NCBI RefSeq assembly: GCF_910592395.1
Contig: NC_088316.1
Span: 9,856,001 to 9,920,000 of the forward strand
DNA length: 64,000 bases
Direction of reading: 5' to 3'
DNA from: Lineus longissimus
Taxonomy: Eukaryota > Nemertea > Pilidiophora > Heteronemertea > Lineidae
The position numbers were made by a program, and so were the translations under genes. The notes under the pieces are model-generated. The model searched no databases and was not told where the DNA came from. It saw nothing but the letters and a program-made list of their open reading frames with translations. The number at the start of each line of letters is the position of its first letter. The stretch's first letter is position 1. This document shows, in pieces, positions 8,521 to 60,930 of this stretch.

Positions 8521-8526
8521 TGAGGT

Positions 8527-8997
8527 GTGAACCAAACACTCAGAGTGACCAAATTGTGTCTGAGAAAATTAGCCTTCACATTCAGGGTGAGGCAAAGCGA
8601 CCATGGTAATAATGTTCAGTTTGGTTTTCGTCGAGGTGTTGGTACGACCCAAGCATGTTCTTTCCTTAATGACATTTTTGCAGTTCGAACCAGAAGGGTT
8701 CACTGGTGTAGGTCTGCAGTGTGCTTTGATAAAGTTTGGCATGCGGGTCTTTTTTTACAAGCTGAGAGGCAAACTACCCCTCCCAAGCTGGCTGTTTCTT
8801 TTTGACCTGTATAAATCATCTACTGCCACGATCTTAAGTAACTGTTCGTAAAGTGAGGTGTTCAAAATAACAAGGGATACGTCAAGGAAGTGCATTATCT
8901 CCGCTACTTTTTAATTTTTTTGCAAACGATCTATTGACTAGGCTGTCCACGTATGAGACTGGAATTCATATTGGTGATGACATTTACAATTGTATTG
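8527..8997 (+). pseudogene. LINE reverse transcriptase, 5' half (interrupted)
   Basis: Three adjacent frames together read as fingers/palm of a non-LTR reverse transcriptase. QFGFRRGVGTTQA and FLNDI come first, then a frame change into FDKVWHAGLF and FYKLRGKLPL, then GIRQGSALSPLLFNFF and NDLLTRLSTYETGIHIGDDIYNC. At least two frameshifts separate these blocks, so the copy is dead. The catalytic YADD box is absent here because a 12.4-kb transposon begins at 8998. The box resumes at 21413. Clade uncertain (CR1/L2/Jockey-like). Confidence 0.85.
8992..8997. other. target-site duplication, left (GTATTG)
   Basis: GTATTG directly precedes the left terminal inverted repeat; an identical copy follows the right one at 21407-21412. 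Deleting the element and one copy restores the LINE frame ...AAT TGT ATT GCA TAC GCG GAT GAT... (NCIAYADD). Confidence 0.9.
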
Positions 8998-9173
8998 TAC
9001 GGTGGCTGGGAAAGGACATGGTGATTTTTATTTTCAATGACGATGTTTATTTTTTATCTCAGGCGCCTGACCTACTAACTCAGGCGCCTGACTTACTATC
9101 TCAGGCGCCTACTTACTCTCTCAGGCGCCTGACTTACTAACTCAGGCGCCTGACTTACGAAAACGAGGCTGGT
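8998..9173. repeat. left terminal inverted repeat with 5 palindrome units
   Basis: Begins TACGGTGGCTGGG, has an AT-rich segment to about 9055, then five CAGGCGCCTG-type palindromes spaced 20 bp apart (9059-9152; the third lacks a G after CCT), then ACGAAAACGAGGCTGGT. The transposase start codon lies only 10 bp inside it. Confidence 0.9.
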
Positions 9174-9182
9174 GAGCTCAAG

Positions 9183-10488
9183 ATGGATGCCATCGTTAAG
9201 GAACTGTTCGGTCTTGCGCTGAATCATAAGGAAATCCTCGCTGTTCTCAAAGAGCGGTTCGGCATTAGGATTAGTGCAAGGCATCTAAGACGCGTCCTTG
9301 CTAAGTTGCAGCTGTATAGGCGACAATTCACCGATTTCGACGAAGTGGTTGACTTTATTAACGCACAGTTGTCTAAATCAGGGCAACTACATGGGTGTCG
9401 TTTCATGCATCTGAAATGTATTAGCAATGACTACGTTGTTAGTAAAGAGACAGTGCGCATCATTTTGAGTATTCTCGATCCTGAGGGCGTGGAGTTAAGA
9501 AAAGCTAGAAGATTAATCAGACGAAGATATACCGTCAAAGGGCCAAATTGCATTTGGCACATTGATGGATATGACAAACTTACACCATACGGAATATGTA
9601 TCAGTGGCTGTATAGATGGGTTTTCGCGATATTTATTGTGGTTGGAAGCATATAGAACTAACAGTGACCCAGCAGTAATTGGAGGGTATTTCATTAAAGC
9701 TGTCAGAAAACACAGCGGTTGTCCACGGTTAATACGTGCAGACCGAGGTACAGAAAACGGACACACTGAGCATATGCAGACATTTCTTAGGGAGGATGGT
9801 GCCGGCGATGGGGAACGGTGCTTTCAGTATGGCAGAAGCACGGCGAATCAGCGAATAGAGTCATGGTGGGGATTTTTTTTGGATTGCTCTTTTTAGTGAG
9901 TTGCAAGGCCAGGGTTACTTCGGCGCAGAGTTGATTGAAAAGGAGCTGATCCGATTCTGCTTTATGGGTTTAATACAGGTAGGCTAATCTTTGAACGATG
10001 TTGTCACCTTGATGGGGCCCGTTTAAAGTTCACATCTTAGCAGGCCTACTAAGAATCACCTCCGAGTTCTTGCCTAGAGCGATTACACCGGGCTTGCCCC
10101 TCGTTAAACTCCACATTTTCCCACCTAAATTTCAATCCATATTGGGGTCGCTATTTGAACTCGGTCACAGTGACACTGTGCTGGGCCTACTGGTACCCGT
10201 CATGGATCTACATTTTGCAAAATCGATAAGTTAATGTTCATGTATATCCCGTAATGTGTCGTCCCTTTCTACATGTATAGGCGACTACTTTTTACGATGA
10301 TTGCATTTCCATTACAGGAGGAACTGAGAGAAGTGTCACATCTATGGAATATCCACAAGATCCGCGGATATCGCAATATGAGCATGAATCATGGACGTCC
10401 TTTCATGATGTACACGGTGCCGGAATCGTTCGATACAGTCGACTACATCTGTGAAGCTGACGACGCAAAAGTGAGAGCCTGTGAGTAA
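9183..10488 (+). pseudogene. IS3EU-like DDE/rve integrase-type transposase, spliced and damaged
   Basis: Exon 1 (9183-9978) opens with a helix-turn-helix-like segment (residues 15-48, ending RRVLAKLQLYRR). An integrase core follows with D128 in WHIDGYDKL, D187 in RADRGTEN and E226 in RIESWW (58 and 38 residues between). After WWG the frame shifts; the next frame reads FFWIALFSELQGQGYFG and RFCFMGLIQ up to a CAG/GTAGGC donor. Exon 2 starts after TTCCATTACAG at 10318 in the same phase (EELREVSHLWNIHKIR... HGRPFMMY) and ends TAA at 10488. A second donor-like GTGAGT lies just before that stop, so a further exon is possible. From memory of related animal proteins, several residues between WW and FFW are missing, suggesting a small deletion that also shifted the frame. 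Role: cleavage and joining of the element ends. Confidence 0.85.
9979..10317 (+). other. intron of the transposase gene
   Basis: Starts GTAGGC after ...TTAATACAG and ends TTTCCATTACAG before GAGGAACTG. Both flanks are in phase 0 and encode neighbouring parts of the same conserved protein family, so the intron call is strong. Confidence 0.8.
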
Positions 10489-10594
10489 TACTGCACATTA
10501 CAGTTGCAGTATCCTTGCGATGAGGACATGTTTGAACTATGTTGCATCCTTCTTGGAAGAGAACGGTCTGGTGCCCCCCCCCCCAAAAAAAAAA

Positions 10595-10727
10595 AATCCT
10601 GACGAAGCCAGACATTTATACATAACTCTGAGAGACATTCTCAATGCACTTATGACTTAGAAATCCTGACGAAGCCAGACATTTATACATTACTCTGAGA
10701 GACATTCTCATTGCACTTATGACTTAG
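10595..10727. repeat. direct tandem duplication of ~66 bp
   Basis: AATCCTGACGAAGCCAGACA through CACTTATGACTTAG occurs twice back to back with only two or three differences. It sits downstream of the transposase, after an 11-bp C and 12-bp A run (10574-10596). Confidence 0.85.
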
Positions 10728-10737
10728 CATAGGCGCG

Positions 10738-11466
10738 TGTTTGGCATGTTAGGCGATGAAAGGAAATGCACAGACATGAGAGAAAGGTGCTGTGGATTGA
10801 ATTTCGGACTTGGTTACAAATCCCGAAATAATTGTCATCGTTCGAGCCTGACCTGGCCGATTTTAGTGCAACACTGTTTCGCCGTTTGTTATGCACTGGC
10901 TTCTATAACTATAAACATTAGTTTACAACGTTCCTTTTTCTTCAGGCATACCTGGACATGCGTTCAATTATTTCGTTCATTCAAAGGCAAAGTAAATCAA
11001 AAAGACAATGTATGAATAAATAATTTATATAAGAATTTATTAGTCTCTTGCCATCAATCTCACAAAAAACCGTCTTATTCAGAGATGATCGTTACCTATA
11101 TTAGAAGACACCGTCTTTTTGCCCCAGATCATAATTTTGTCCACGACAGAGTTTAAATTGATCATTATCTTTTCCCAACAAAGAGAATACCATAAATGGA
11201 TTAGAAGGGGATTAACCAAAATGGCTTTTCGTGGCAAAGATTATCTCCACAGTAAGATGATTTTTGTGTGTTTACCGCAGTCATTCAGACACATTTACTT
11301 CAAATTATGTTAAGGTACCGGTATATTGCTCTAAATCGAATATTTGAACTAGACACAACGCGATTCGTGTGAATCGCAATGTATGCCCCCGCTGAGTGGG
11401 CATATTTTTAATGTTGGGTAGGTTGAAGGAAATGAATTTAAGTGCTTATACTGGTAGTAATCTGCT
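10738..11466. other. no gene recognised
   Basis: Interior of the large transposon. Short frames without motifs; could be transposase 3' UTR or old insertion debris. Confidence 0.35.
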
Positions 11467-11946
11467 TACTGTATTTATGCGCATTTTAGCGCACTGCACG
11501 CGCTAATTGAGGGTGCAGTTAAATTCAATTATAAGCACAGTTTAAGCGCAGTGCGCTTATAATTGAACAAAAACGTTCTTGATGTGCGTGTTGATTGGTG
11601 GCAGGAGAGGGTCATTCCACCTGGAATGAACAGCAGTTGTGTGTTTTGCTTTTTAAAAGTGTCTTTCTCTTCGTCTTTCATGTGGCAGTGCGCGGTATTC
11701 AGAGTTAACATGCTAGCGGGTTTAAACATGGAAGCATGCAGCACGGGACTGTGACAGTTTCTTCACGTATTCTTCCAGCATGCTATTAGAAGTCATGCAG
11801 CCTCCCTTCGATGCAGTGACGATGACGTCTCCGAAAAATATTAGCACATGCGTTTATAATTGGGCAAAGTGAAGGCTGAAAATATACCCTAAAACAAGCG
11901 ATTTTTGTTTATAAGCGCATGTGCTAAAATGCGCATAAATACGGTA
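11467..11946. mobile_element. TA-flanked MITE (mariner-like ends)
   Basis: The left end TA-CTGTATTTATGCGCATTT and the reverse complement of the right end TA-CCGTATTTATGCGCATTT are inverted repeats flanked by TA. Internal copies of AATTATAAGC/GCGCTTATAATT and TGCGC motifs add secondary palindromes. There is no coding capacity. TA duplications with short inverted ends are typical of Tc1/mariner MITEs. It is nested inside the large transposon. Confidence 0.75.
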
Positions 11947-11970
11947 TGTAGTGTGACATGTTTTCATCAA

Positions 11971-12435
11971 CCAGTCATGAAAGGACTGATGATGGGCATC
12001 GTAAGTTGGGTTTGGAGAGTACCTTTGGAGACAGTGGTCATGGTGAAAACCGTGTCCTTGTTGCAGTAATCAGCCATGAAAGGACTGATTATGAGCACTG
12101 TAACTGGTGCTCTGAGAGCAGCTCTGGAGGTGGTTACAGTGGAAAGAAGTGTCCTTGGTGGAGTAATCAGCCTTGAAGCGGTGATTGGCATCGTAATCGG
12201 TGTTCGGAGAGCAGCTGTGGATCAAGGCAGTCGTCACAGTGGAAACGGTTTGCTTGTTACAGCTCTTGGGCATTCGTCCGCCATTGCTTTATATGGAAGA
12301 AGCCGAATTTGTGGGCTGGTGTGTTGGGCTGAGGTGGGAGTTGAGGAACATCAATTGGATGGGTATCGTAGCTGGTGTTCTGGTAGCAGCTGTGGAGGCA
12401 GTGGTCGAAGAGGAGGAGTTGCTTCCAAGGGATGC
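11971..12435. repeat. degenerate minisatellite, about 98 bp x 3-4
   Basis: Units begin CAGTCATGAAAGGACTGAT (11972), CAGCCATGAAAGGACTGAT (12071) and CAGCCTTGAAGCGGTGAT (12168). Each contains GGTG(T/C)TC..GAGAGCAG and a CAGTGG..GAA stretch. A fourth, poorer copy lies at about 12350-12435. The long open frames on both strands here are side effects of the repeat. Confidence 0.7.
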
Positions 12436-12444
12436 CGAGTGGCC

Positions 12445-12700
12445 ACTCTATTACTGATTGAACGTATCGTAGACTGGGTTGTGGTAGCTGTAGTATGTTC
12501 TGCACACTCCTGCATGTATTTCATCAGGATGCGACTTGATATAGATGTGATCTAACAGTGTGTAGTTGAGTGTTGTGGTTTCCTTGATGAGTTGTTGAAA
12601 TGAATGGAGGGGGTGTCCCGGCACTTGAAGACGTTCTTTGAGTAGATTGTAGTTGAAATCTCCGCCGATCACAGTATGCAATGGAGATGGAATGGTTCTC
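12445..12700 (-). pseudogene. endonuclease/exonuclease/phosphatase-type fragment
   Basis: On the minus strand the frame shows HTVIGGDFNYNLL, then TLLDHIYIKS and RTYYSYHNPVYDTF. GDFN, LLDHIY and YYSxH..V are the C-terminal active-site blocks of the EEP nuclease fold as found in LINEs and endonuclease-bearing Helitrons. The usual SDH is here SYH, so the catalytic Asp is lost. Only the last third of the domain is present, so it is a scrap of a mobile element. The TYYS variant resembles Helitron-associated versions, but I would not insist. Confidence 0.55.
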
Positions 12701-12709
12701 GGGTTAAAC

Positions 12710-13352
12710 TGTTATAGGGCGGAATGCAAAAATCAAGTTTGTGGCCTGGTCGGGCCCAAAATCAATAGGGCACCTCCCCTTCACTAGAACATCACACCAC
12801 AGAAGTTTCAGGTTTATCACTCACTCGGTTCTCAAGTTATGGGGCGGAATAAAAAAACAAAGATGGCCGCCTGGCGGCCATGATGGATTTTGGGTCGGGC
12901 CCAAAATCGATAGCGCACCTCCCCTACACTAGAGCATTACACCACAGAAGTTTCAGGTTTATCACTCACTCGGTTCTCAAGTTATGGGGCAGAATGCAAA
13001 CAACAAAGATGGCCGCCTAGCGGTCATGATGGATTTTAGTTCGGGCCCAGAATCAATAGGGAACCTCCCCTACACTAGAGCATCACACCACAGAAGTTTC
13101 AGGTTTATCACTCACTTAGTTCTATAGTTAGGCGGCGGAATGCAAAAAAAACAATATGGTGGCCTGGCGGCCATCTTGGATTTGGGCTTTGGTCCAAAAT
13201 GAATAGGGAACCTTCGAGACCCTAGGCCTTCACACCATAAAAATTTCAAGTCTACCGGACAAGCGGTTCCTCAGTTATAGAGCGGAATAGAGTGCGGACG
13301 CGGACGCGGAAACCAGCCAAGAACATAATGCCTCCATCTCAACTTCGTTGAG
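12710..13352. repeat. tandem repeat, ~130-147 bp x 4, with hairpin end
   Basis: GTTATGGGGCGGAAT-like landmarks recur at 12710, 12837, 12981, 13127 and 13274. Each unit contains CCACAGAAGTTTCAGG and a GGCCGCC..GGCGGCC stretch. The array ends in GCGGACGCGGACGCGG and a perfect hairpin CTCAACTTCGTTGAG (13338-13352). Similar hairpin-ended arrays are, as I recall, dispersed in marine invertebrate genomes. Confidence 0.8.
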
Positions 13353-14096
13353 CAGGGGCATATTTAGTGATGTAGTTTGATCCACTGAGTATGCACGGGT
13401 GTATCTACCCTAGATTTTAGAGAGGGTTAAAACAGAGTCTATGGTCTTTGGTTAAGATCAGAAAACGAGGTGCATTTTGACGACCGTTATTGCGTTGTCT
13501 GTTATCAGTAATGCAATGAAATATGCACTGGTATGTACGCAATAATACAAAGCAATAAACTTGTCTTAATGCCACTTGACACCCATAAAAGAACAAGAGG
13601 CCCAAGGGCCTGGCGCTCAGCTGAAATGGATAAGTGAAGGCAAGGGCCAAGTGTGTGTCGGTACCGTTATTATGAGGCAACGTGAAGCTATAACGTCTAG
13701 CACGCAGAGGTGCTGATGCGAAAGACCTTCTTGCTATATCAGTGCATGCTGAAGTACTGAGTTGACGTCACCCTGGTATTATGACGTAAAGTCATTTCTA
13801 TTGCCGTTGCAGTAGTGGGGTGTGTGGTGACGTCAAGGAGTTGTGTGGTGACGTCAAAGAGTGGAGTCCTTGTCTTCATGCAGCGTAGGTGGAACTAATA
13901 ACATGCACATGGACACAAGGTACATAATTATTACAGTGTATTTTGTGAGGTGGGGCCTGGTGCTTTACAATGGTCAAATGAACCGACTGTTGTCTGGACA
14001 TTGATGAAGTGGATGCAGCCAAATGTTTGGGACGGTCTTTTTTGTATGTGAAGAAAAGAAGATAAAGAGTTGGTTAACAAAATGAACTTTATTGGT
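13353..14096. other. non-coding with a GGCCC-palindrome repeat head
   Basis: At 13594-13626 the motif ACAAGAGGCCCAAGGGCCT, containing the palindrome AGGCCCAAGGGCCT, followed by GGCGCTCAGCTGAAA resembles a dispersed repeat head that I remember from several marine invertebrates, especially molluscs. The rest shows nothing recognisable. Confidence 0.4.
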
Positions 14097-14176
14097 GCGG
14101 CAGATATTTGATGCCTTTCGGCAGATATTTGAAGCGCCTTGCGGCAGATATTTGTTGCCTTGCGGCAGATATTTGA
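14097..14176. repeat. short tandem GCGGCAGATATTTG x 4
   Basis: Four copies of CGGCAGATATTTG spaced 20-24 bp, separated by short CT-rich linkers. Minisatellite only; open frames on the minus strand repeat ISAA/YLPQG and are not genes. Confidence 0.8.
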
Positions 14177-16334
14177 TAACGCTCTCCGGGAATGGAAAGC
14201 AGTAAAACGAGTAAGCACACCTTACTCTGAATGTGGGAACAGCAAGTGCTTTCCTGGACTTGAAATGTGCCAACGACTCCTCTTGCAATAACCAACAACA
14301 GTCTGTGCTTGATCAGGCATCGGTCAGATGATATCCTGAACAAGGCATCTATGGAAGCAAATCCAGAAAGAGACTTAACCTTCGAAGGGCACACTTATTA
14401 CTCAGTGAAAAGTCAGTCCTGTGGGCTGTTTTCCAATTCAAAATAAAAGTGTAACCTCTTTAAATTAGTCTCACAGACTGAACCATAACACTCAACAGCC
14501 AACCGTGCCCACATGATGTGAGCCGAGAGCTGGGCTTAAAGATGAGCGAGTGGTGTACTACATTTTGAAAATTGTCTATCGTCTACGACATGTGACAGAA
14601 CAGGATCTAGTGGACTTAATGATGAGGTACTATCAAATAAGGTGTCCATCAAATGAATCATGAGGGCCTGTTGAGTTCTACTCTAAGCCTGTCCTATAGG
14701 GCTTGGCTATGGTTTTTGTCTTTTTTACAGCTACAGTACAGCCATGCACAGCGCAGTGTACAGACAGTACAGGATTGCAAACCAAAAACATGAGCATTGC
14801 TGCGTAACGAAACTGCAGTGGGATTCATACTACGATGTCATAATGTGACTTTCAAAATAATTGTAAACAAACGTAAATGGCGAAATTTGTTGCAAAATTG
14901 CCATCCACAACAACTCAGGGACCGTAGCCAAAATGGCCGACGGCGAATTCTCCGGTCGCTAGCGCAGTCCATAAACAAGCATCAATTTTACCAACTTTGG
15001 GCGCAAGCTTGGTCATCAAAGTTACAGAACTGATAGAAATACATCCAAACAACATATATATACAGTTAAAAGTGCATAAAAATCCCGTTTCAACCTCCGG
15101 GCGCTACCTTTTTTTCTCCGCCAGACGCCGGGCCCTACCGGTCGTTATTTAGTGCGACCGCCACCAGAGTGTTTATCACGATCTTTCGCCGTTTTAATTG
15201 CGCGTTTTAGGCAGATTAATCAATTATTACATGCATGCATTATATATCACCGAAATGATAATTGCGTAGGCTATTTGAAACTAAGTTCAGATATTATTTT
15301 TGATCTTTGAATTGAATTTAGGTGAGTGATTTTTGACACCCGGTCGACATATCAGGACTTGCAAAATTCACGCGAGATCGCTTGCTTCATCGGCACGTTT
15401 GAAAACCGAATTTCACAAATTCTACAAATATTTATCACATACCATATGTATCACCACAAAGGTAACTCTCTAAACTATTTGAAACCAAGTTCAGATACTT
15501 ATTTTCACAAAAATTCGAAGCTATGCAAGCGATTTTTCAGTGGTAGAGATCGACGGAAACAAATTTCTCGCTCTAAAATGACATGAGACGAGCACCAACT
15601 TTCGCTAATTTGTGCACAAAATTTCCGCAATATTATAAAAAACTATCGATAAATCTGAATTATATAGACTCTTTTTAGTACCTAAACAAATTTCAGGTAC
15701 ATGGTCATGTTGATTAAAAGAGTATCAACCGATTGAACATGAGAAAGTTCACTCATCTTCATTGAAGCAGCGACTACCGCCATTTTTAAATGGTGGCATC
15801 TCTTCTATCGATCGGCCAATCAGCGGCACTGCTTGCAAAAAGTTGAGCCACCGCCAAATTTGAAATCGCCAAAATTCAGTCAATGTGCCTGCAGTGCCAA
15901 CTGGCGGTGAAAACTATATCAATTCCATTAAAAGTAAAAAATGAAAAAATACTAAAAAATATTCAGCCACATTTGAAAACAATATTTGCTCTGTGGACCG
16001 AGGTAAAAAGGGAAAGAAATCTAAACGCGAAATGACCTCATTCTCTTAATACAGGTCGGATCGCGCTGATTTTTCGTGTTTTGAGTTCACCTTGGGCAAC
16101 TCCTAATTTAGCACCGTCAACGAAGTGGCTAGGCCTTCCCAATCAGAAATGTCCAATTTTGTCCACAGATGGGTCCCTAGATGGATGGATGGATGGATGG
16201 ATGGATTGCAGGACGGACACCATTTGAACAGCTATTCTACTAGCTCCGCTGACTTTGTCAGCTGAGCTAAAAATGCTGCGGATCTCAACATGTTAGCCCT
16301 TACTTTGCTTGATTGGAAGGTTTGCCCTTAATTA
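14177..16334. other. transposon interior, no gene recognised; GGAT microsatellite
   Basis: No domain seen. (ATGG)n lies at 16180-16206, followed by the imperfect hairpin AGCTCCGCTGAC..GTCAGCTGAGCT (about 16242-16268). Two short blocks resemble each other (CTATTTGAAAC.AAGTTCAGATA near 15270 and 15475). This stretch lies 3' of the HECT-like gene and could hold its missing last exon, but I cannot identify one. Confidence 0.35.
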
Positions 16335-17660
16335 CTACCTATACTCTGCTAATGATGCGGGCTGACGAAAGGTTAGCACTGGAACAAGTAGCGCACTAGT
16401 GGTTACCTCCTTAGAGAATCTGAGAAATCTCTTCAATAACCTGTCGTCAAGCCCTGCGACAAACTTCGTGAGATATTTGCTTGCCCCCTTCTTCTCATCT
16501 GTCATCTTCTCTGGGAAGATGAGCGTTTTTTTCACAAGCTTGTTGGAAGGGGTCAACAACGCGTACAGTTGCATAAATGATGCATGGCTTTCGAACGCCA
16601 GGGGCCCTAAGATTAAGCGCCAGCGGTCTATTACGTACATTGGCGTTTGTATTAGCTGCTTGTGGGCAATTTCTTCAATAATGGCAAGATAGTTTTTCGC
16701 ATTTAGAAGTTTTCTGCAATCGTACGTGCTAGGTACCTCTATCAGGTCATCTAGTTTTTCGGGTTGGAAATCCTGCGTCATCTTTTTCAAAACTTCCCTT
16801 TCATCTCGATCTACGTAGTTGATGAACGCTTCGACTAGGGAGCTGTACGTCTTCCCATAGATAACCTCTTCCATGAATGGGGCTGCAAGAAGATTCGGAA
16901 TATACCTAAATTCGCGCCAGCCAATAAGGTATATTCTCGCGATAGCTTTCCATTTCTCACTCGTGAAATCGTGTCTGAGGAAAGGCACTTCGCAACACTG
17001 GCCGCCAACTGTGCACTGACTGAAAAACTCGATCCAGACTTGAGAGACGCAATCTCGAAACACCCCATCACCAACAGCAGCCTCAAGATCGCCACTGTCC
17101 GCTTTCCACCTGCAGTACAGTCGTTCGGACCGAATCGACTCATCTGAAAATGCCTTTATCATGTCATCGAGACAAGACGACCGCTTTATAATAAGCTGCC
17201 TCGGCTCTTTTTCGAAGTTAGGTTGTAGTGGCACCGTGTCATCCAAGGGTTCCAGAAAGTCCAATCCCAATATCGGCCCGAACTGTATTGTTTCTTCTAA
17301 ATACATATGTTGCGGTGTTGATGTAAGTGGCCCTACCGGCAGTTCATCAGTTACTGGCGCTCTATCATCGGCGTGCGATGGCTGGGTTTGTGAGTTAGGT
17401 AGGAACTCTGCTGGCGCTCTACCCTCGGCGTGGTATGGCTGGGTTTGTGAGTTAGGTAGGAACTCTGCTGGTGCTCTACCCTCGGCGTGGGATGGCTGGG
17501 TTTGTGAGTTAGGTAGGAACTCTGCTGGTGCTCTACCCTCGGCGTGGGATGGCTGGGTTTGTTGGATTCGTGAGGTGGGACTTGAATGCATTGTAGCTCC
17601 CATTATATCACTGTCATCATCGTCGTCGTCGTTATCACACCCTTTCTTGCTTGTTGCCAT
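16335..17660 (-). CDS. HECT-like domain open frame (441 codons)
   Basis: Residues 1-30 are acidic (NDDDDDDSD). Residues ~35-110 are four 19-residue repeats of the AEGRAPAEFLPNSQTQPSH type; residues ~170-441 are HECT-like. Family landmarks are GDGVFRDCVSQVW (the G-x-x-R-D position of HECT N-lobes), PFLRHDFTSEKW, ARIYLIGWREFRYIPNLLA and, near the end, FLRFSKEVTT then VPVLTF. HECT ligases carry a catalytic Cys about 30-40 residues before the C-terminus, after a block like the last one. Here the frame stops shortly after VLTFRQPASL, so the Cys lobe is absent or sits in an unrecognised exon (GTAGTA after AGTATAG could be a donor). The Met at 17660 is probably internal to a longer original frame. 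Confidence 0.7.
   Translation of the reverse strand: MATSKKGCDNDDDDDDSDIMGATMHSSPTSRIQQTQPSHAEGRAPAEFLPNSQTQPSHAEGRAPAEFLPNSQTQPYHAEGRAPAEFLPNSQTQPSHADDRAPVTDELPVGPLTSTPQHMYLEETIQFGPILGLDFLEPLDDTVPLQPNFEKEPRQLIIKRSSCLDDMIKAFSDESIRSERLYCRWKADSGDLEAAVGDGVFRDCVSQVWIEFFSQCTVGGQCCEVPFLRHDFTSEKWKAIARIYLIGWREFRYIPNLLAAPFMEEVIYGKTYSSLVEAFINYVDRDEREVLKKMTQDFQPEKLDDLIEVPSTYDCRKLLNAKNYLAIIEEIAHKQLIQTPMYVIDRWRLILGPLAFESHASFMQLYALLTPSNKLVKKTLIFPEKMTDEKKGASKYLTKFVAGLDDRLLKRFLRFSKEVTTSALLVPVLTFRQPASLAEYR
17355..17575. repeat. 57-bp in-frame tandem repeats within the HECT-like gene
   Basis: CTGGGTTTGTGAGTTAGGTA and GCTCTACCCTCGGCGTG recur at a 57-bp period, three near-identical copies plus a diverged one. 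On the minus strand they encode 19-residue proline-rich units between the acidic stretch and the HECT-like domain. 57 is a multiple of 3, so copy number can vary without frameshift. Confidence 0.9.
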
Positions 17661-18173
17661 GTAAAATCATAATTAGCGCATTTTAGTGATATCATACATT
17701 TCGCCGAGAGTGATGTCATCTTGAATATCTGACCCTTTGAAATCTTTTAACGAAAATGCGAAGTCCGTTGCTGGTCCTTTCGGGGAAACGCAATGGGGGA
17801 AAAATATATCGATTGTCTTTTTCAGAACGTCATTTTTCTTTCCTTGTTTTTCCACACGCACATGTCTAGTGCCCCTCCGTTGTGTTTGCGCACTTGCTTG
17901 TAGGTTAGTGAAGATTGATCAAAATGGCTCCAGCCGATTTCAACCACCCGATCTTTTTGCGGCCGCGAGTTGCGGCCGCATAACTCTTTGTTTCCCTCGC
18001 TATTGGTTTTAAACCTTTTCCTTAAGTTTTCAAGTAGATTGTCTTTCCTCTTTTTGGTGGTCATGCCAATGACTACAGAGTGAGATACGGACTTCGAAAA
18101 GTTGTTACAAAACTGTACTGTGGCAAGGCGATCTCCGAAATGTAGGATGTATACCGCTAATTGTTCATCGTTC

Positions 18174-18258
18174 ATTAGCTGAATCGTTGTGATGTCAATC
18201 TGAAAAGATAAAAGAATTAGCTGAATCGTTGTGATGTCAATCTGAAAAGATAAAAGAA
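18174..18258 (-). repeat. 42-bp duplication of the splice acceptor
   Basis: AGCTGAATCGTTGTGATGTC to GATAAAAGAAT occurs twice in tandem. On the minus strand this duplicates TTTTCAG/ATTGACATCACAACG, giving two identical 3' splice sites 42 bp apart (exon starts at 18199 or 18241). Use of the distal site would add 14 codons read from the acceptor sequence itself; the proximal site keeps the conserved frame directly. Confidence 0.8.
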
Positions 18259-18386
18259 TGAAGTAATGTAATAAACACTCAGTAAGAAATTCAAGTAGTT
18301 GCCCTGAAAACTGAACGTGACATTCTATAACTTCAGCCTAAGGCTGGTAGCACAGTGCATGAGAGGGGACGTCTTGATTACCTCCC

Positions 18387-18700
18387 ATAAGGCCACATAA
18401 AAAAAAGCTAGTTTAGCATCAGTTACACCTCTAAAAAGTGAGGAGGGAGGTTTTTTTTGTTGTTTTTTTTTTCCAAAAATTTATTTTTTTGGTGATTTTC
18501 ACATCTGAAATGGCCCCTCAGTAGCCTAAAGCAGCATGGAATGAGTCTAGCACAATGCATTGGATGAGCTACATTGAAAAACATGGATACTAACTATCAT
18601 GCTTTGCTTCAGACTCGTTCTAGTATGCTGCTTTGGCTGGTGAGGTGCCATTTCAGAGGTGAAAAATCACCCCAAAATATTTTTTTTGATGTGGCCTTAT
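18387..18700. mobile_element. foldback MITE in the HECT-like gene intron
   Basis: ATAAGGCCACAT at 18387 and its reverse complement ATGTGGCCTTAT ending at 18700 bound ~110-bp inverted arms. The arms share GGTGATTTT(T)CAC, TCTGAAATGGC.CCTCA and AAAGCAGCAT. Total 314 bp, no coding capacity. It lies wholly between the two recognised exons. Confidence 0.8.
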
Positions 18701-19138
18701 TCAAACAACCCTTTCAGTGTTTTTGAATGCTTTTTTTGAAGATTGATTACAAATTCGATGTTTTCTACAGAAATGTCGCATTGAATATTTTATATTTCTA
18801 TTAAAAGATTGTATTTTTAATAAAGCGATTTATGGATAGAGTTGTATAGTTCAAACATACCTTCTCTGCTCGCATTTCATCAACAACTTCATTTGGCAAC
18901 TTTCTCTCCGACAAGAGAAATTCGCGTAATTGCTCATCCTGAAATGAAAACAAATCATTTGTTAATGAAAAGGTAAGCAATGTAACGGTATTACGGTCCA
19001 ATTCACAAAAACCTGCGTCACTCTGATGTCGCTGGCGCGTAATTCGGCGCGCATTTCCCGCGTACATTCGACGGATGACATTTGTGATTTGGAATATATC
19101 ATATTCAGACCTCACCGAAGAGAGCCGTCGCATCCGTA

Positions 19139-19502
19139 ATGCAAGTATCAATTTGTGTCTTGTACCCCCCTCCTCAAGGGTACGACACCTTATCACCCTA
19201 TAACGACATCTTAAGGCTCAAGCATCACCCCTTTTTTCACCAATGCTACTTTTTCTTTCGTCAAGACATCACCCTCAACAATATATCAGTTATCACCATC
19301 ATATAAAGTAACCGGACTAATTTTACTGGGTAAGGCTGTATGTTCGACAAGACATCGACACATTAGCGTGCTTATTCTTTCCAGCTTCGCCAAATTTTCA
19401 CTAAAGGAAAAATAAATACTACTCAAGCATCGGCAAAGATTAGTGGTGATAGCTTAACTACCCTTGAGGAGGGGGGTACAAGTAACAAATTGATACTTGC
19501 AT
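19139..19502. mobile_element. MITE-like element with ~40-bp inverted ends
   Basis: ATGCAAGTATCAATTTGT, then CTTGTACCCCCCTCCTCAAGG, is repeated in inverse at the right end (CCTTGAGGAGGGGGGTAC... ATACTTGCAT). Interior is AT-rich and non-coding. Located just upstream of the recognised HECT-like exon, so it may separate an earlier first exon from it. Confidence 0.75.
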
Positions 19503-19817
19503 AAACTCTCTGCTCTAAGGATCAATATACCACTTGCTCACTGATATAGGCCCCTTTAAAATCACGGTTGGTAACTGTGGTTATGGCGGGGGAGGGCAAA
19601 ACGAATTTGATAATCAGGGCCTGGTTGAGACAAAGGAAATTTTGTCATCAATGTCACGTTCACTTAAATGGCAAACTTTGGCATAAGCTACTTTAGTATG
19701 TAGGTTTATCATGCAAAAACGGCTTGGAGCATGACCGCAACTTCTCCGCCGCAGGATCAATGAAAAATCATTGAAATGCAATAAACAATGCGTAAGAACG
19801 GGGTGCAACATTTAGCC

Positions 19818-20366
19818 GGTAACCGGAAAAACGCCGACCGACCGACCGACCGACCGACCGACCGACCGACCGACCGACCGACTGACCTGCCAACCCAAGG
19901 AGTTTCGTAGTTGAGTCACAGGTCTCATAAGTCAATGTGATATATAGAATCCACGATAGCAGGTCATGTGAAATGAAATTGTAAACAAGCGCACGTGCAC
20001 TGGTCAAATGACAACAAATGCATGTTGCGCGTTGCAGTTCATGCATTGCATCGGTCGATACACTCGAGTAGAAAAACTACAGTGCATAGATTAGGCCCAA
20101 ATCATGTTTTTATATCCACCGACCATGTGGACAAAGCATATCTTTAGAGTATCGTTATCAGTTCCTTACCGCGTGGGCTCGTTTTCCCGGTATAATTGAC
20201 TGAAGATGCTGCTGTCAGACACGTCGGACTCCATCACGTCCATTGCGCTGGGCACTACACAGATACATGTGCTATAGAGAAGCGAAAGGGATACTGCATA
20301 TGACGGTAGGTTGGCAGCTCAGTCGGTCGGTCGGTCGGTCGGTCGGTCGGCGTTTTTCCGGTTACC
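19818..20366. mobile_element. foldback element with GGTAACCGG ends and (ACCG)n arms
   Basis: GGTAACCGGAAAAACGCC followed by (GACC)n (19835-19880) on the left; (GGTC)n (20318-20350) followed by GGCGTTTTTCCGGTTACC on the right, exact inverted counterparts. The tetranucleotide arrays sit immediately inside the inverted ends. Non-coding. Confidence 0.8.
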
Positions 20367-20886
20367 CCTTAAGCCTGCCTGGAATTCGCAAGCCATGATG
20401 TCCAAAACAGCCTCACAGCACTGGCAAAAATCATTATCAGAGATCAACCTCCAAGTGGCGACGCATGGTGTCAATTAAGCACATTATCCTCCAGGCTTGG
20501 TAAATCCCATGCCCAAGTTGTCCCTTTAACACAGCTTCGTGGCGGTTTACGTCGCTACGGATGCTGAATACTTTAGTATACCTGCAGATCAACTACCATG
20601 TATGCCTATGTACCTAATACACTGTGTGTGTTTTGGATGTGTCACCACTGGCAGTGCCGCTGCTAATAGCCAAGCATCATGCCGTACGTGTTGAAATTAG
20701 GCCTAGTTATATAGTTAAGTTGCCAAAAAGACCTAATTGAATCAAATACTACTAACTGTCTTTGATCTCATCGTCATTACACAATAGTGATACATACCAT
20801 ACTTAAATACGTCCGCAGTGACCCTTCTTCTTCTGTGACGTCTTTATGTCAAAATGTAAAATGCCCAGTATCGCGTGCATCAACCA
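20367..20886. other. transposon interior before right TIR, nothing recognised
   Basis: No motif or repeat recognised. If the HECT-like gene has an upstream exon or promoter, this is a candidate place, but I see no direct sign. Confidence 0.3.
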
Positions 20887-21406
20887 GCCTCGTTTTCGTA
20901 TGTCAGGCGCCTGAGTTAGTAAATCAGGCGCCTGAAAAAGTAAGTCAGGCGCCTGAGTTAGTAAATCAGGCGCCTGAAAAAGTAAGTCAGGCGCCTGAGA
21001 TAGTAAGTCAGGCGCCTGAGTTAGTAAGTCAGGCGCCTGAGTAAGTAAGTATAAGTTAGGCGCCTGAGATAGTAAGTCAGGCGCCTGAGTTAGTAAGTCG
21101 GGCACCTGAGATAGTAAGTCGGGCGCCTGAGTTAGTAAGTCGGGCGCCTGAGTTAGTAAGTCAGGCGCCTGAGTTAGTAGTCGGGCGCCTGAGAGAGTAA
21201 GTCGGGCGCCTGAAAAAGTAAGTCAGGCGCCTGAGATAGTAAGTCAGGCGCCTGAGTTAGTAAGTCAGGCGCCTGAGTAAGTAAGTATAAGTCAGGCGCC
21301 TGAGATAGTAAGTCAGGCGCCTGAGTTAGTAAGTCAGGCGCCTGAGATAAAAAATAAACATCGTAATTGAAAATAAAAATCACCATGTCCTTTCCCTGCA
21401 ACCGTA
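20887..21406. repeat. right terminal inverted repeat with 21 palindrome units
   Basis: Read inwards on the minus strand it starts TACGGTTGCAGGG, then the same AT-rich block as the left end, then about 21 CAGGCGCCTG-type units spaced about 20 bp, ending ACGAAAACGAGGCTGGT. Some units are CGGGCGCCTG or CGGGCACCTG. A two-unit motif with GTAAGTAAGTATAAGT recurs near 21040 and 21280, so part of the array arose by duplication of a ~240-bp block. Peptides such as QAPDLL from these frames are artefacts. Confidence 0.9.
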
Positions 21407-21412
21407 GTATTG
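21407..21412. other. target-site duplication, right (GTATTG)
   Basis: Second copy of the 6-bp duplication, immediately outside ...GCAACCGTA and directly followed by CATACGCGGATGATG of the interrupted LINE. Confidence 0.9.
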
Positions 21413-21561
21413 CATACGCGGATGATGTAACAGTCTGTGCTGTGACGCCAGTTGGGTTAAAATAATTGTTTGATATCTGTGCAGAATTATGCCCAGTTCT
21501 TGGCGTTTTACATTCGGTATAGAGAAAACCCAATTGTGATTTCTGGAGTGAATCCCTTTGA
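21407..21561 (+). pseudogene. LINE reverse transcriptase, YADD segment
   Basis: Reads IAYADDVTVCAVTPVGLK, then a stop in place of one codon, then LFDICAELCPVLGVLHS. This is the catalytic motif and following helix of the LINE whose 5' half ends at 8997. The stop and later frame breaks show decay. It ends where a TTAA-type foldback begins at 21562. Confidence 0.85.
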
Positions 21562-39988: not shown

Positions 39989-42595
39989 TGCGAGTTGCGA
40001 GTTGCAAGTTACATTTGCGAGTTGCGAGTTACATCTGTGAGTTGCGAGTTGGATTTACCACAATTTGCTAATTTCAGCAGGCAACTAAGTTAGACATTCC
40101 TAGACCCAATCAATGACACTGGTAATGAACGACTGGTAATCAATGGCCAAAAAATGTTGAACTAGCCCAACTTGCAGAAGAGGTAAAAGCCCCATGGTTA
40201 TTCTTTTCTGCGAGTTGCCTGGCTGAAATTGCCAAATCATGGTAAATTCTCTTGAATTTGGTCATGTTTGGCCACACTGGTAGGATGCCTCATATCAGAG
40301 ATGCCCTCTCTCATTTCAAGTGTCATTTATTGGGTCTAGAAATGGCTAACTAGCCCAACTCGCAGAAAAGAAAACCCCCAGGGTAATTCTTTTCTGCGAG
40401 TTGCCAGTTGAAATTGGCAATTTATGGTAAATTCTCTTGAATTTGGCCATGTTTGGCCACACTGATAGGATGCCTCATATCAGAGATGCCCTCACTCATT
40501 TCAAGTGTCATTTATTGGGTCTAGAAATGGCTAACTAGCCCAACTCGCAGAAAAGAAAACCCCCAGGGTAATTCTTTTCTGCGAGTTGCCAGTTGAAATT
40601 GGCAATTTATGGTAAATTCTCTTGAATTTGGCTATGTTTGGCCACACTGATAGGCTGCCTCATATCAGAGATGCTTTCTGTTATTTCCAGTGTCATTTAT
40701 TGGGTCTAGAAATGTTGCACTAGTTTAACTCGCAGAAAAGAAAAACCCCGGGGTAATTCTTTTCTGCGAGTTGCCTGCTGAAATTGGCAATTTATGGTAA
40801 ATTCTCTTGAATTTGGCCATGTTTGGCCACACTGGTAAGATGCCTCATATAAGAGATGCCCTCTTTCATTCCCAGTACCATTCAATGGGCAAAACATGTT
40901 GAAATAGCCCAACTCGCAGAAAAGAAAATCCACAGGGGTAATTCTTTTCAGCGAGTTGTCTGCTGAAATTAGCAAATCATGGTAAATTCTCTTGAATTTG
41001 GTCATGTTTGGCCACACTGATAGGATGCCTCATATCAGAGATGCCCTCTCTCATTTCCAGTGTCATTGATTGGGTCTAGAAATGGCTAACTAGCCCAACT
41101 CGCAGAAAAGAAAATCCACAGGGGTAATTCTTTTCTGCGAGTTGCCTGCTGAAATCAGCAAATCATGGTAAATTCTCTTGAATATTTCCCAAATTTATAA
41201 TTCAAATACATGTACATATTTCTTTTACCTCTTGGCTTTGGGGTAAAAGCAACCCCTAATCACCAGTCTTACCATGCGTTCACAGGCATTGTTTTATCAT
41301 TAGAAGACATGCCACTCTACACTATCCTTGCAGGTTTTAGTGCATCTAAAGGTGTAGGCCTAATCGAGGTGATAGTGAAAAAGGTGGTTGCTTTTCCCCG
41401 ATTTTACCTTACACAGCATTCGTGTTTTCTTTTCTGCGAGTTGGACTAGTTAGCCATTTCTAGACCCAATAAATGACATTGGAAATGAAAGAGGACATCT
41501 CTGCTATGAGGCTGCCTATCAGTGTGGCCATACATGACTAAATACAAGGGCATTTGGCCATGCTTTGCCAATTTCAGCTGGCAACTCGGAGAAAAGAATA
41601 TTACCCCAGGGTGTTTTCTTTTCTGCGAGTTGGGCTAGTTAGCCATTTCTAGACCCGATAAATGACACTGGAAATGAAAGAGGACATCTCTACTATGAGG
41701 CTGCCTATCAGTGTGGCCATACATGACTAAATACAAGGGCATTTGGCCATGCTTTGCCAATTTCAGCTGGCAACTCGGAGAAAAGAATATTACCCCAGGG
41801 TGTTTTCTTTTCTGCGAGTTGGGCTAGTTAGCCATTTCTAGACCCGATAAATGACACTGGAAATGAAAGAGGACATCTCTACTATGAGGCTGCCTATCAG
41901 TGTGGCCATACATGACTAAATACAAGGGCATTTGGCCATGCTTTGCCAATTTCAGCTGGCAACTCGCAGAAAAGAATAACCCCAGGGTGTTTTCTTTTCT
42001 GCGAGTTGGGCTAGTTAGCCATTTCTAGACCCGATAAATGACACTGGAAATGAAAGAGGACATCTCTGCTATGAGGCTGCCTATCAGTGTGGCCATACAT
42101 GACTAAATACAAGGGCATTTGGCCATGCTTTGCCAATTTCAGCTGGCAACTCGCAGAAAAGAATTACCCCAGGGTGTTTTTTTTTCTGCGAGTTGGGCTA
42201 GTTAGCCATTTCTAGACCCGATAAATGACACTGGAAATGAGAGGGGGCATCTCTGATATGAGGCATCCTACCAGTGTGGCCATACATGACTAAATACAAG
42301 GGCATTTGGCCATGCTTTGCCAATTTCAGCTGGCAACTCGCAGAAAAGATTTACCCGGGGGTTTTCTTTTGCGATTTGGGCTAGTTTGACATTTTTAGAC
42401 CCATTTAATGACACTGGAATTGAAAGAAGGCATCTGGCATTTTTAACTCGCAAATCCAACTCGCAACTCGCAACTCGCAAATGTAACTCGCAACTCGCAA
42501 ATCCAACTCGCAACTCGCAAATGTAACTCGCAACTCGCAAATGTAACTCACAACTCGCAAATCCATCTCGCAACTCGCAACTCGCAGAAAAGAAA
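39989..42595. mobile_element. giant palindromic element made of two opposed ~185-bp arrays
   Basis: The left arm (40060-41190) has six tandem units with TTCTTTTCTGCGAGTTGCC at 40201, 40387, 40572, 40757, 40942 and 41128 (period 185-186). The right arm (41425-42400) has about six units of the reverse orientation (CAGCTGGCAACTCGCAGAAA, period about 186-190). A unique centre of about 235 bp separates them. Both outer ends carry short arrays of TGCGAGT/ACTCGCA words joined by ACATT or GGATT (39989-40060; 42445-42595). No convincing coding frame. It resembles foldback transposons with tandem-repeat arms. Confidence 0.85.
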
Positions 42596-48367: not shown

Positions 48368-49510
48368 TTAGATTGTCCAGCGTTCAGAATCGTACCCACA
48401 ATCATTCACAACACCCACAGTCAATTCTAGTTCTAGTCCATCACAATGTCCTCCTCGACTACATTCACGAACTCTGGGCCATCCACGACAGCCTCCTCTT
48501 CTTCCTCCAAGATAGCCTGTGGTCCAGCTTGATTGGCCTTGGTCGAAACGATGTTCAAAGCCGTTGATGATAACGTCCTCATCGACACCATTCCAGGCAT
48601 CTCTGATGGTGTTGGTCACGTCTCTCAGGCCGATGTGAAAGCAGTCTCCTAGTTCGTCCGTGTGGTCCTTCTTCCACGATTTCCATTGTCGCCGTACGTG
48701 ACATTTGAAGGACTTCATGACTGCAACGACTAACGGTTGTACGAGGGATGTGCAACCAGCATGTACGTAATCCAGGCTGCCTCTCATGTTGCGGACTCTC
48801 GTCCGAAAGTTCTCTGTCCGGTGGACCCGATTATGATCGACGATTAACAGGAACTGGTCGGCCTCGTTGTCGGTGACGTGGGGTGATAGGACTTCATCTA
48901 AGCAGTGGTGCGCCGTTTCCTCCCTCATCCAACCAGTTTCCGATTGGGTAATCTTTCCATCTGTTGGTGGGTTGTCTTGGAGGGCTGCAAACACCCGGAT
49001 GACACCTCTTCTGGGAAAGTTGATGTACGCCGGCACATTTGCTCAAGAGACTGCGATGCGAGGGTGACGGTGCCTCCCAGCTTGGTATTGGACCTGGATG
49101 ATCGGACGTCTATGGCCTTCTCCCCCGTGGTGTTGACCGTCTACATGGTTCTCATGTCAAACAGGACAATCGATGGTCCCAGTAACCGCATCTCGGACAA
49201 GGTCTGGATCCTTGCAACAGCATCAGCGGGGACGGTCGTTGTATTCTTGGTCACCTTCTGTAGGGACACGTGGCGCCTCTTCTTCAAGCACTCCACCCAG
49301 CCTATGGATGCGTTGAAATCCCATAGCTGAGGGCGACAATGCTGAATCACTTCTCTGACATCTTGGGCCAACTCATTCCACTAGCTATGCCACACTACCA
49401 ACGCCTTATCTTGAATGTCGAGAACGGAGACTGCGAGGCGACGCTCTCTCATCTGCTTCAGCCATTGGTAAAGCAGTTTCAATTTCTTTGGGGTAAGGGG
49501 ATATTTTTTA
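48368..49510 (-). pseudogene. pogo/Tigger-like transposase (DDE_1), decayed
   Basis: From upstream: LTPKKLKLLYQWLKQMRERR (near 49490-49430), a stop, then FNASIGWVECLKKRRHVSLQK (CENP-B-type DNA-binding part) and VPADAVARIQ. After frame breaks come TGWMREETAHHCLDEV, FLLIVDHNRVHRTE (second catalytic Asp) and GCTSLVQPLVVAVMKSFK. The third catalytic residue, normally the D of QPLD, is V here. AWNGVDEDVIINGF near the end is also typical. At least two frame breaks plus the lost Asp make it inactive. It sits ~150 bp inside the left TIR. Confidence 0.8.
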
Positions 49511-49886
49511 CATATTGACCCTGCTAATCGCTGGCCACGCCAAAAATGATGGTCCTGTAATCATTGGCAGACGACAATTTAGACAAGCTAACAACTTTCA
49601 CTTGTTATAGCGTTCCCATATATCCTTGTCTACTGTGTGAAGTTCGTCGTCATGTGATAATTTTTGGGGGCTGCAAATATTACGAACATACATTCTGGAA
49701 TCTCTATGAGCTCTCTCCGTACAATCAATGCCAATCGAGTCAAGATTGGAATCTGGCTCATCTCTTTTGTATCGCATATTATAGGTCTTTATATAACTCT
49801 TCCTCAATCTATCACCATACAAATAGCGAAGAACACTTCTTCCTTGGGGACATTTAAGGCTATTACACAGGCACTGATTAAGTTCG

Positions 49887-50385
49887 GTGTCACTGGTCGG
49901 AGGTAGGGGGTATGGTGTCTCAGATAGGAGGTTTTGGGCCTAAAGGTGTCTCAGATCGGAGGCTTTGGGCCTAAAGGTGTCTGACATCGGAGGTAGGATG
50001 TATGGTGTCTCACATCGGAGGCTTTGGGCCTAAAGGTGTCTCAGATCAGAAATAGGGCGCATGGTGTCTATGATCTGAGGTTTTGGATCGCATGGCGTCT
50101 TATATCGGAGGTAGGGTGCTTTGTGTCTCACCCTACCTCCGATCTGAGACACCATATGATCCGTAACCTCTGATCTGAGACACCAACCACTCTATCTCCG
50201 CTGTGAGACACCATGTGATCCAAAACCTCGGATCCAAGACACAAATCATCCTACCACCCATCTGTGACACCATATGAACTCAAAACCTCTGTTCTGAGCG
50301 TCCTACCTCTGCTTTGAGACACCATTTGTTCCTAAATCTACGAAATAAGGCAACATTCACCCTACTTCCGATCTGATACACAATG
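49887..50385. repeat. opposed short tandem arrays (foldback), ~31-40-bp units
   Basis: Left half: repeated GGTGTCTCAGATCGGAGG plus TTTGGGCCTAAA or TAGGGTGTAT, about every 31-34 bp. Right half: the inverse, CCTCCGATCTGAGACACCAT plus ATGATCC, about every 40 bp. The halves meet at a perfect palindrome CGGAGGTAGGGTG / CACCCTACCTCCG (50106-50141). Confidence 0.8.
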
Positions 50386-60712: not shown

Positions 60713-60930
60713 TATCTTTGCCTTATTTGGTGGATTGTGGCTTCCCTTCCCACTGGATGACCAACTTTGTCATGCTCTCTCTGTACAACCAGTCTGGTTA
60801 CATCTCCTCTTCTTGGTAATATCACAGGAAACTTAGCGCTGTCTTTCAAGCAATCAACCCTTTCCAAACGTGATTGAAGACGGAGCAGTTGTCTCTTCTT
60901 GTCGAGGAAAGGGGTGAGTAGTAATGGCTT
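60622..60930 (-). pseudogene. BEL/Pao integrase N-terminal zinc finger, out-of-frame segment
   Basis: The frame linking the two larger ones reads VILPRRGDVTRLVVQREHDK VGHPVGR, then IHQIRQRYWI. REHDKVGH supplies the two His of the HHCC finger; the Cys pair lies in the next frame (CSNC). The reading frame must change once near 60930 and again near 60690 to pass through, so pol is broken twice. Confidence 0.75.

Follow-up and report, generated by a model that had tools for sequence, protein, structure and literature searches.

IS3EU transposons are described as having TA..TA ends, usually 6-bp target-site duplications and no HHCC finger, and the same account gives Ginger1 an HHCC finger and 4-bp duplications, Ginger2 duplications of 4-5 bp, and IS481EU TNT..AYA ends with duplications of about 4, 15 or 25 bp (PMC10045372). 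Fungal IS3EU elements that carry TET/JBP genes have ends of the form TAYGG..CCRTA and encode an alpha-kinase as well as TET/JBP, with the kinase gene lying opposite to the transposase (PMC12730594). We describe an element in a 64-kb window of the genome of the nemertean Lineus longissimus (NC_088316.1; the window is the whole stretch that was analyzed, and its numbering is used throughout). The element is very probably a decayed two-gene cut-and-paste transposon of the IS3EU/GingerRoot type, with a HECT-like passenger gene that has diverged together with the transposase and with arrays of short palindromes in its ends.

The element occupies positions 8998-21406 (12,409 bp), opens with TACGGT and closes with ACCGTA. 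Its left and right ends are identical at 109 of the 113 outer positions and at 55 of the outermost 58, and since an inner border, CGAAAACGAGGCTGGT, is common to both, the terminal inverted repeat spans 8998-9173 on the left and 20883-21406 on the right. The right repeat is longer than the left because its palindrome array has more units, and it contains a 236-bp period in 1.9 copies. When the element and one copy of its perfect 6-bp duplication are skipped, the flanks join in frame as ..DDIYNCIAYADDVTVCAVTP / IAYADDVTVCAVTP, and the score against Pfam RVT_1 (cut-off 29.6 bits) rises from 27.9 bits for the left open reading frame running into the element, which is below the cut-off, to 36.2 bits. 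This is a DNA transposon inserted into the YADD box of a long interspersed nuclear element (LINE). The LINE too is decayed, since its upstream part (8524-8802) gives a weak match in a different frame, and its frame on the right is soon closed by a stop. The window was also scanned, as a control, for TA..TA pairs that enclose 1.5-20 kb and are flanked by an exact 6-bp duplication; of the 1,454 candidates, this pair had the best inverted repeat (2 mismatches in 20; the runner-up had 6). The exact borders and the in-frame repair of the LINE that a preliminary description had claimed are thus both borne out, and its word "complete" holds for the ends and not for the genes, both of which are broken, with the HECT catalytic lobe missing.

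The same description had proposed an IS3-like DDE integrase, and the protein evidence agrees. Exon 1 of the left-hand gene matches PF24764 (E = 2e-22), as do 47 of 47 members of the protein family (E up to 0.01), of which NCBIfam IS481 models match 44 and IS3 models 43 (E up to 0.1). Relatives were counted over the best 120 listed for each of the two proteins; for the transposase, where 1,390 proteins match at 1e-5, the catalytic triad D128/D187/E226 is kept in 120, 119 and 118 of them, respectively. Named sources among these 120 are fish, frogs, molluscs, a hemichordate and a sea star, and in their tree the window copy stands with five unnamed proteins (P0001-P0004 and P0024; support 0.95-1.0), the next neighbor group including Tegillarca and Patiria. 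The TACGG..CCGTA ends in the window, 6-bp duplications (in the window, in 20 of 29 other copies and at 11 of 20 related loci, see below) and an IS3/IS481-like DDE transposase, without an HHCC finger and with its first catalytic D at residue 128, within the 100-300 residues from the N-terminus that mark IS3EU/GingerRoot, all support the fit to IS3EU that had earlier been proposed. We infer that PF24764 is the IS3EU transposase, and as judged from ends, duplications and transposase type, the element is very probably a decayed IS3EU/GingerRoot-type copy.

Set beside IS3EU as portrayed in PMC10045372, the Lineus element is alike in its TA..TA ends, 6-bp duplications and DDE transposase lacking an HHCC finger, and differs in having a HECT-ligase second gene and phased palindromic-array ends. 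It resembles the fungal TET/JBP-carrying elements described in PMC12730594 in its 6-bp duplications, its long inverted repeats, a passenger gene opposite to the transposase, and ends of matching form (TAYGG..CCRTA in the fungi, TACGG..CCGTA here). The passengers differ: an alpha-kinase and TET/JBP in the fungal elements, a HECT ligase in this animal genome. A limited literature search pairing IS3EU with HECT found no paper, and we claim no novelty relative to Repbase; among the titles and abstract openings returned for HECT with transposons and for end arrays, none was recognized as this element. The new parts would be the HECT passenger, as far as that limited search shows, and the phased palindromic arrays.

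The family is spread through the genome. A search of 391 Mb (30 contigs) with the left end gave 120 matches, with 40 of 86 candidates scored, so that all copy counts are lower bounds, and 29 other copies were fetched, mainly from paired inverted matches and not as a random sample (C-numbers below denote contigs of this genome and L-numbers fetched loci). Their ends were placed by best match to the window end, with no duplication imposed, and 20 of the 29 nonetheless have a perfect 6-bp duplication, of 14 different words. The preliminary description had named copies with other end points or without 6-bp duplications as what would count against it; by that measure 20 of the 29 agree with it and 9 do not. 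Seventeen of the 20 read TACGG..CCGTA exactly, and L025, L028 and L032 each differ by one base at the right end. Every word that recurs is confined to a single contig (C12 for AAAATG, found four times; C20 for GAATCA, three times; C13 for GAATGC, twice); these same-word copies look like later duplications of a locus. Taking 26 duplications together (15 of this family and 11 of relatives; 24 words), position 3 is A or T in 25, position 4 is A or T in 24, and position 1 is G or C in 21, a mild and roughly symmetrical target preference.

Two of the 20 copies with perfect duplications are long, on C1 (13,879 bp, CTAATA) and C3 (16,662 bp, CGTTTC), and all three long copies, at separate sites, contain both the transposase and the HECT gene. 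The other 27 are short, those with two ends and perfect duplications spanning 155-787 bp. Six of the 27 were examined, and because in all six the middle matches the inner margins of the long copies, they are internal-deletion derivatives. Reduced to little more than two ends, the short copies are evidence that non-autonomous elements of the family spread too.

Related elements were sought with the transposase, which gave at least 150 matches (150 of 183 candidates scored) that merge into 113 loci, many of them fragments; 20 of these related loci were fetched as 10-kb stretches and scanned for ends in two ways. With an exact duplication imposed and the ends left free, TACGG..CCGTA was the best pair at 9 of the 20; at the rest the best pair was poor or did not resemble the ends of an element. 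With TACGG-like ends imposed and the duplication scored, a perfect 6-bp duplication was found at 11 of the 20, L046 had one mismatch, and the other 8, L049 among them, gave no assigned 6-bp duplication. In L049, L051, L053 and L054, elements about 99% alike, both frames are still open (373 and 702 codons from stop to stop), which suggests that these related elements moved recently. Three of the four are 6.8 kb long, two of them with perfect duplications (CTTTTC and GATGAT); the right end of L053 was not found in its fetched stretch.

The ends themselves have a regular internal structure. The 64-kb window contains 26 units of the palindrome TCAGGCGCCTGA, counted with at most 2 mismatches, and all lie inside the two ends, 5 on the left and 21 on the right. 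Of the 173 spacings shorter than 60 bp in the 29 copies, 151 measure exactly 21 bp, or two turns of B-DNA. Multiple subterminal binding sites are known from hAT/Hermes, En/Spm and P-type elements, whose transposases are unrelated, but the Lineus element differs from these in having perfect palindromes at helical pitch. Upstream of the transposase, 18 of the 20 related loci have 20, 21 or 42 bp as their strongest short period, which is weak in six (match 0.44-0.62), and the other two gave 11 and 14. The palindrome changes among the related loci, being TCGAGCGCTCGA at a pitch of 20 in L042 and L048, TCGATCGA with 21 among mixed spacings in L044-L046, and CTCATACGTATGAG at a pitch of 21 in L058-L060. 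Because the pitch is constant while the palindrome changes, the array is best read as a row of putative dimer-binding sites that share one face of the helix.

If the arrays were instead transcriptional operators, a promoter or a satellite-like expansion, with no role in binding the transposase, then it would be natural that the left repeat stops about 10 bp before the transposase ATG and that the number of units varies among copies as in a tandem repeat. Arrays in both ends, which survive in the short copies, and a 20-21-bp pitch kept from family to family through changes of palindrome are harder to account for in this way, and we regard such an origin as unlikely, although it keeps some real weight. 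The arrays had been singled out at first as unusual; they do set the element apart from known IS3EU, and they recur in related elements.

The second gene, convergent with the transposase as first described, is by the evidence of its relatives a HECT-ligase relative, with ligase activity predicted. A search of PDB profiles gave UBE3C clearly (E = 0.001) and HUWE1 and UBE3A more weakly (E = 0.055 and 0.18). All 120 listed relatives match the main exon over 16416-16874, and the catalytic Cys is kept in 119 of these best 120; PF00632 is found in 51 of 54 relatives (E up to 0.01), and P0165 and P0145 score above the Pfam HECT cut-off of 23.9 bits. The relatives share with HECT E3 ligases a C-terminal lobe bearing the catalytic-Cys motif R-P-x-x-H-T-C, although they are distant from them, and the window copy lacks this lobe, which is undetectable beyond 16416, where alignment to the C1 copy shows a gap of about 340 bp. 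The C1 copy retains the C-lobe with HTC (E = 1.9e-29). The HECT linker contains 3.7 units of a 57-bp (19-aa) in-frame repeat at 17354-17562, with clearly more in the C1 copy. A search with the single HECT protein found 2 relatives and a search with an alignment 191, and the 19-aa repeats are probably the reason for the low figure. No consistent Pfam match was found in the N-terminal modules of the HECT relatives, and a PDB search with a three-sequence HECT alignment returned one irrelevant weak match.

A genome search with the HECT protein gave 40 matches, merged into 33 loci, and 27 of these have a transposase locus no more than 15 kb away and converge on it. Random placement, in any orientation and with the sizes of three contigs guessed, yielded a mean of 0.39 and a maximum of 3 paired loci in 2,000 trials. 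Viewed from the other side, HECT sequence lies in the same 10 kb at 14 of the 20 related transposase loci, and just beyond the stretch at L056; in L052, L055 and L057, elements of 4.2-4.3 kb, the alignment to the HECT protein covers just its HECT part, about 310-320 residues. Distances between transposases and between HECT proteins correlate at r = 0.98 over six representatives, with only 2 of 720 arrangements as high, the true one included. Such recurrent pairing suggests that the HECT enzyme belongs to the transposon rather than to the host. The second gene had been called unusual, and as a passenger it does differ from those of known IS3EU; it recurs in related elements and is no oddity of one copy. 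A one-off nesting of a host gene was also considered and rejected, the gene being present in all three long copies at separate sites.

The HECT-like gene might instead be a passive passenger, captured from the host a single time and since then carried without function. Transposase-only relatives exist (L041 and L043-L046), and the HECT gene is broken in the window copy, both of which such a gene could explain. It would be much harder for a gene without function to stay paired with the transposase at 27 of 33 loci in one orientation, to co-diverge with it, to keep its catalytic Cys in 119 of the best 120 relatives, and to retain long open frames in diverged families (665 codons in L042, 702 in L049, L051, L053 and L054, and 731 in L059). 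We consider passive carriage improbable.

Contigs common to the two public lists of best 120 relatives were also compared. Two short shared contigs (1,191 and 3,509 bp) were dropped as evidence of pairing, chance alone expecting 0.5. Two long ones go beyond chance (0.0007 expected): one of 1,281,550 bp, on which sharing does not itself show the two genes to be adjacent, and one of 37,718,764 bp from Sarotherodon, with gene tags 024914 and 024917.

Membership in another integrase-like superfamily (Ginger1, Ginger2, Polinton or IS481EU) would be compatible with 6-bp duplications, which also occur in Polintons and most prokaryotic IS481, and with NCBIfam IS481 matching as well as IS3. The element, however, has neither the ends nor the duplication lengths of IS481EU and neither the HHCC finger nor the 4-bp duplications of Ginger1, the ends and duplications given for Ginger1, Ginger2 and IS481EU in PMC10045372 do not suit TAC..GTA and 6 bp, and the HHCC pattern occurs in 0 of 47 transposases, which makes this assignment very improbable. 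A foldback or P-type (Galileo-like) element was rejected because the transposase is PF24764. Finally, that the inverted repeat and duplication arose by chance around unrelated sequence, or that they are an artefact of assembly, has a negligible probability given the standing of the window pair among the 1,454 candidates, the LINE frame restored at the empty site, and the recurrence of these ends, with differing duplications, at many genomic sites.

Several observations nevertheless count against the IS3EU/GingerRoot-type transposon with a HECT passenger. Nine of the 29 copies have no perfect duplication: L038 has one with a single mismatch, and of the 8 with none, L023, L036, L037 and L039 have a poorly matching end, whereas L026, L027, L029 and L034 keep both ends (0-3 mismatches in 24) between flanks that differ at 2-6 of 6 positions; the flanks of L049 agree at 5 bp (GTTGC) and not 6. 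Helix-turn-helix matches in the N-terminus of the transposases are weak and confined to few members, and the arrays of the L049 type and of L050 and L056 yielded no perfect palindrome that repeats. The HECT-gene pieces in the window give no Pfam HECT match by themselves, so that the HECT name rests on the relatives, of which the two nearest fall below the cut-off (20.1 and 21.9 bits). Two of the six representatives used for co-divergence are near-identical, which makes the effective number smaller. Five of the 33 HECT-like loci have no transposase within 15 kb and one is divergent, and 5 of the 20 related loci (L041 and L043-L046) have no HECT gene in the fetched 10 kb. The transposases of the latter are close relatives (67-69% identical), and because three of these transposase-only loci have perfect 6-bp duplications, at 3.4-5.1 kb, HECT appears dispensable in some lineages.

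The five HECT-like loci that stand apart from any transposase are at C11:10814157, C13:15165827, C20:9189836, C3:10604094 and C28:26771; they are possibly remnants, or genes retained by the host.

The features of the window element are collected in the table. In the transposase, about 8-9 codons and the frame are lost at about 9872-9877, after NQRIESWWG and the catalytic E; the intron (9979-10317) is bounded by GT..AG, and the 3' end of exon 2 is repeated as a 67-bp tandem duplication (10594-10727). The C1 transposase has a stop in exon 1 and is missing the part that holds exon 2, and the C3 transposase is split by 4.2 kb of its own DNA, carries stops and has Q at the position of the E, so that an intact transposase is missing from all three long copies. 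The window copy can no longer make either protein intact.

Table. Features of the Lineus longissimus element and its insertion site, in window coordinates
Feature	Position	Strand	Remarks
LINE reverse transcriptase, left part	8871..8997	+	reads ..DDIYNC
Left target-site duplication	8992..8997		GTATTG, 6 bp
Left terminal inverted repeat	8998..9173	+	176 bp: ~58-bp end, 5 palindrome units, shared inner border
Left array, 12-bp palindromes TCAGGCGCCTGA	9059..9153		5 units, spacing 21, 21, 20, 21
Transposase exon 1	9183..9978	+	PF24764 core, D128, D187, E226; GT donor at 9979
Transposase exon 2	10318..10660	+	AG acceptor; one in-frame stop, later frame change
Nested insertion, ~2.0 kb	11353..13363		empty site in both C1 and C3
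Nested insertion, ~2.7 kb	13597..16268		empty in C3 only; C1 has its own DNA there
HECT-like gene, main exon	16383..18241	-	frameshift near 17870; stops at 17673-17675 and 17667-17669
HECT-like gene, small 5' exon	18861..18938	-	AG acceptor and GT donor; weak match to family N-terminus
MITE-like insertion, 364 bp, 44-bp inverted ends	19139..19502		empty in C1 only
MITE-like insertion, 549 bp, GGTAACCGG ends	19818..20366		empty in both C1 and C3
Right terminal inverted repeat	20883..21406	-	524 bp: same end and inner border, 21 units
Right array, same palindrome	20903..21345		21 units; spacing 21 (x17), 20 (x1), 27 (x2)
Right target-site duplication	21407..21412		GTATTG, 6 bp, perfect
LINE reverse transcriptase, right part	21413..21465	+	continues YADD box in frame to stop

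The length of 12.4 kb had also seemed unusual, and it stands, with the qualification that in the alignment of the three long copies about 5.6 kb of it is taken up by nested DNA, in four insertions for each of which at least one other long copy has the empty site. Two of these resemble miniature inverted-repeat transposable elements (MITEs), and within the insertion at 11353-13363 lie a 146-bp tandem repeat and a fragment with weak similarity to an endonuclease (12454-12711, E = 0.03). The remaining 6.8 kb, with the lost C-lobe added, is about the size of related complete elements (L051 and L054, 6.8 kb).

Searches of the PDB, whether with single sequences or with the transposase alignments, were uninformative, and Rfam at the gathering threshold gave no match. 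In viral contigs no relative turned up for the transposase or the HECT protein, nor for the palindrome pair or the end. A search of genome contigs gave a single relative, a PF24764 protein of 648 aa (L001), on a high-GC contig filed under a Myxococcales bin. No element ends were found in that contig, its neighboring open reading frames look eukaryotic, and it looks like a misplaced eukaryotic contig.

Other repeats share the window. Proteins of a BEL/Pao long terminal repeat retrotransposon (Peptidase_A17, RVT_1, DUF5641 and a weak rve) lie at 59663-63998 on the minus strand and are cut by the window end. A DDE_1 transposase open reading frame at 48371-49042, also on the minus strand, we take to be pogo/Tigger-like; about 1 kb from it lies an inverted tandem array (49886-50298) that may be the end of another element. 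At 39989-42586 there is a large inverted arrangement of 185-189-bp tandem repeats with 20-bp AACTCGC arrays at its flanks, a foldback-like or satellite structure.

If an intact member of the family works as its parts suggest, the left-hand gene, read inward, would supply a transposase that binds the ends, cuts them and rejoins them at a 6-bp stagger, a chemistry for which the ends, the duplications, the conserved D/D/E and the observed separate insertions are the basis. The family-specific palindrome arrays, with their pitch of about two helical turns, would be probable assembly sites for the transposase or for another dimeric DNA-binding protein. The HECT-type E3 ligase, transcribed convergently from the right end, would most likely aid the element, either by tagging a host protein such as a silencing or repair factor or by keeping the level of the transposase down.

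It is possible, though we put it forward tentatively and at somewhat less than even chances, that animal IS3EU-type elements form a large and old lineage in which HECT is a standing second gene that subverts host control, and in which the transposase and the palindrome arrays co-evolve as a code of self-recognition. The HECT ligase would then be the animal counterpart of the fungal TET/JBP passengers, and many of the HECT proteins of fish, molluscs and echinoderms that databases hold as "uncharacterized" would be transposon genes. The finding ties these widespread proteins to a transposon superfamily and offers a directly testable case of a eukaryotic transposon with its own ubiquitin ligase. 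The arrays, with their constant pitch and changing palindrome, provide a natural series of ends in which the recognition of self and of sister-family ends may be studied within one genome.

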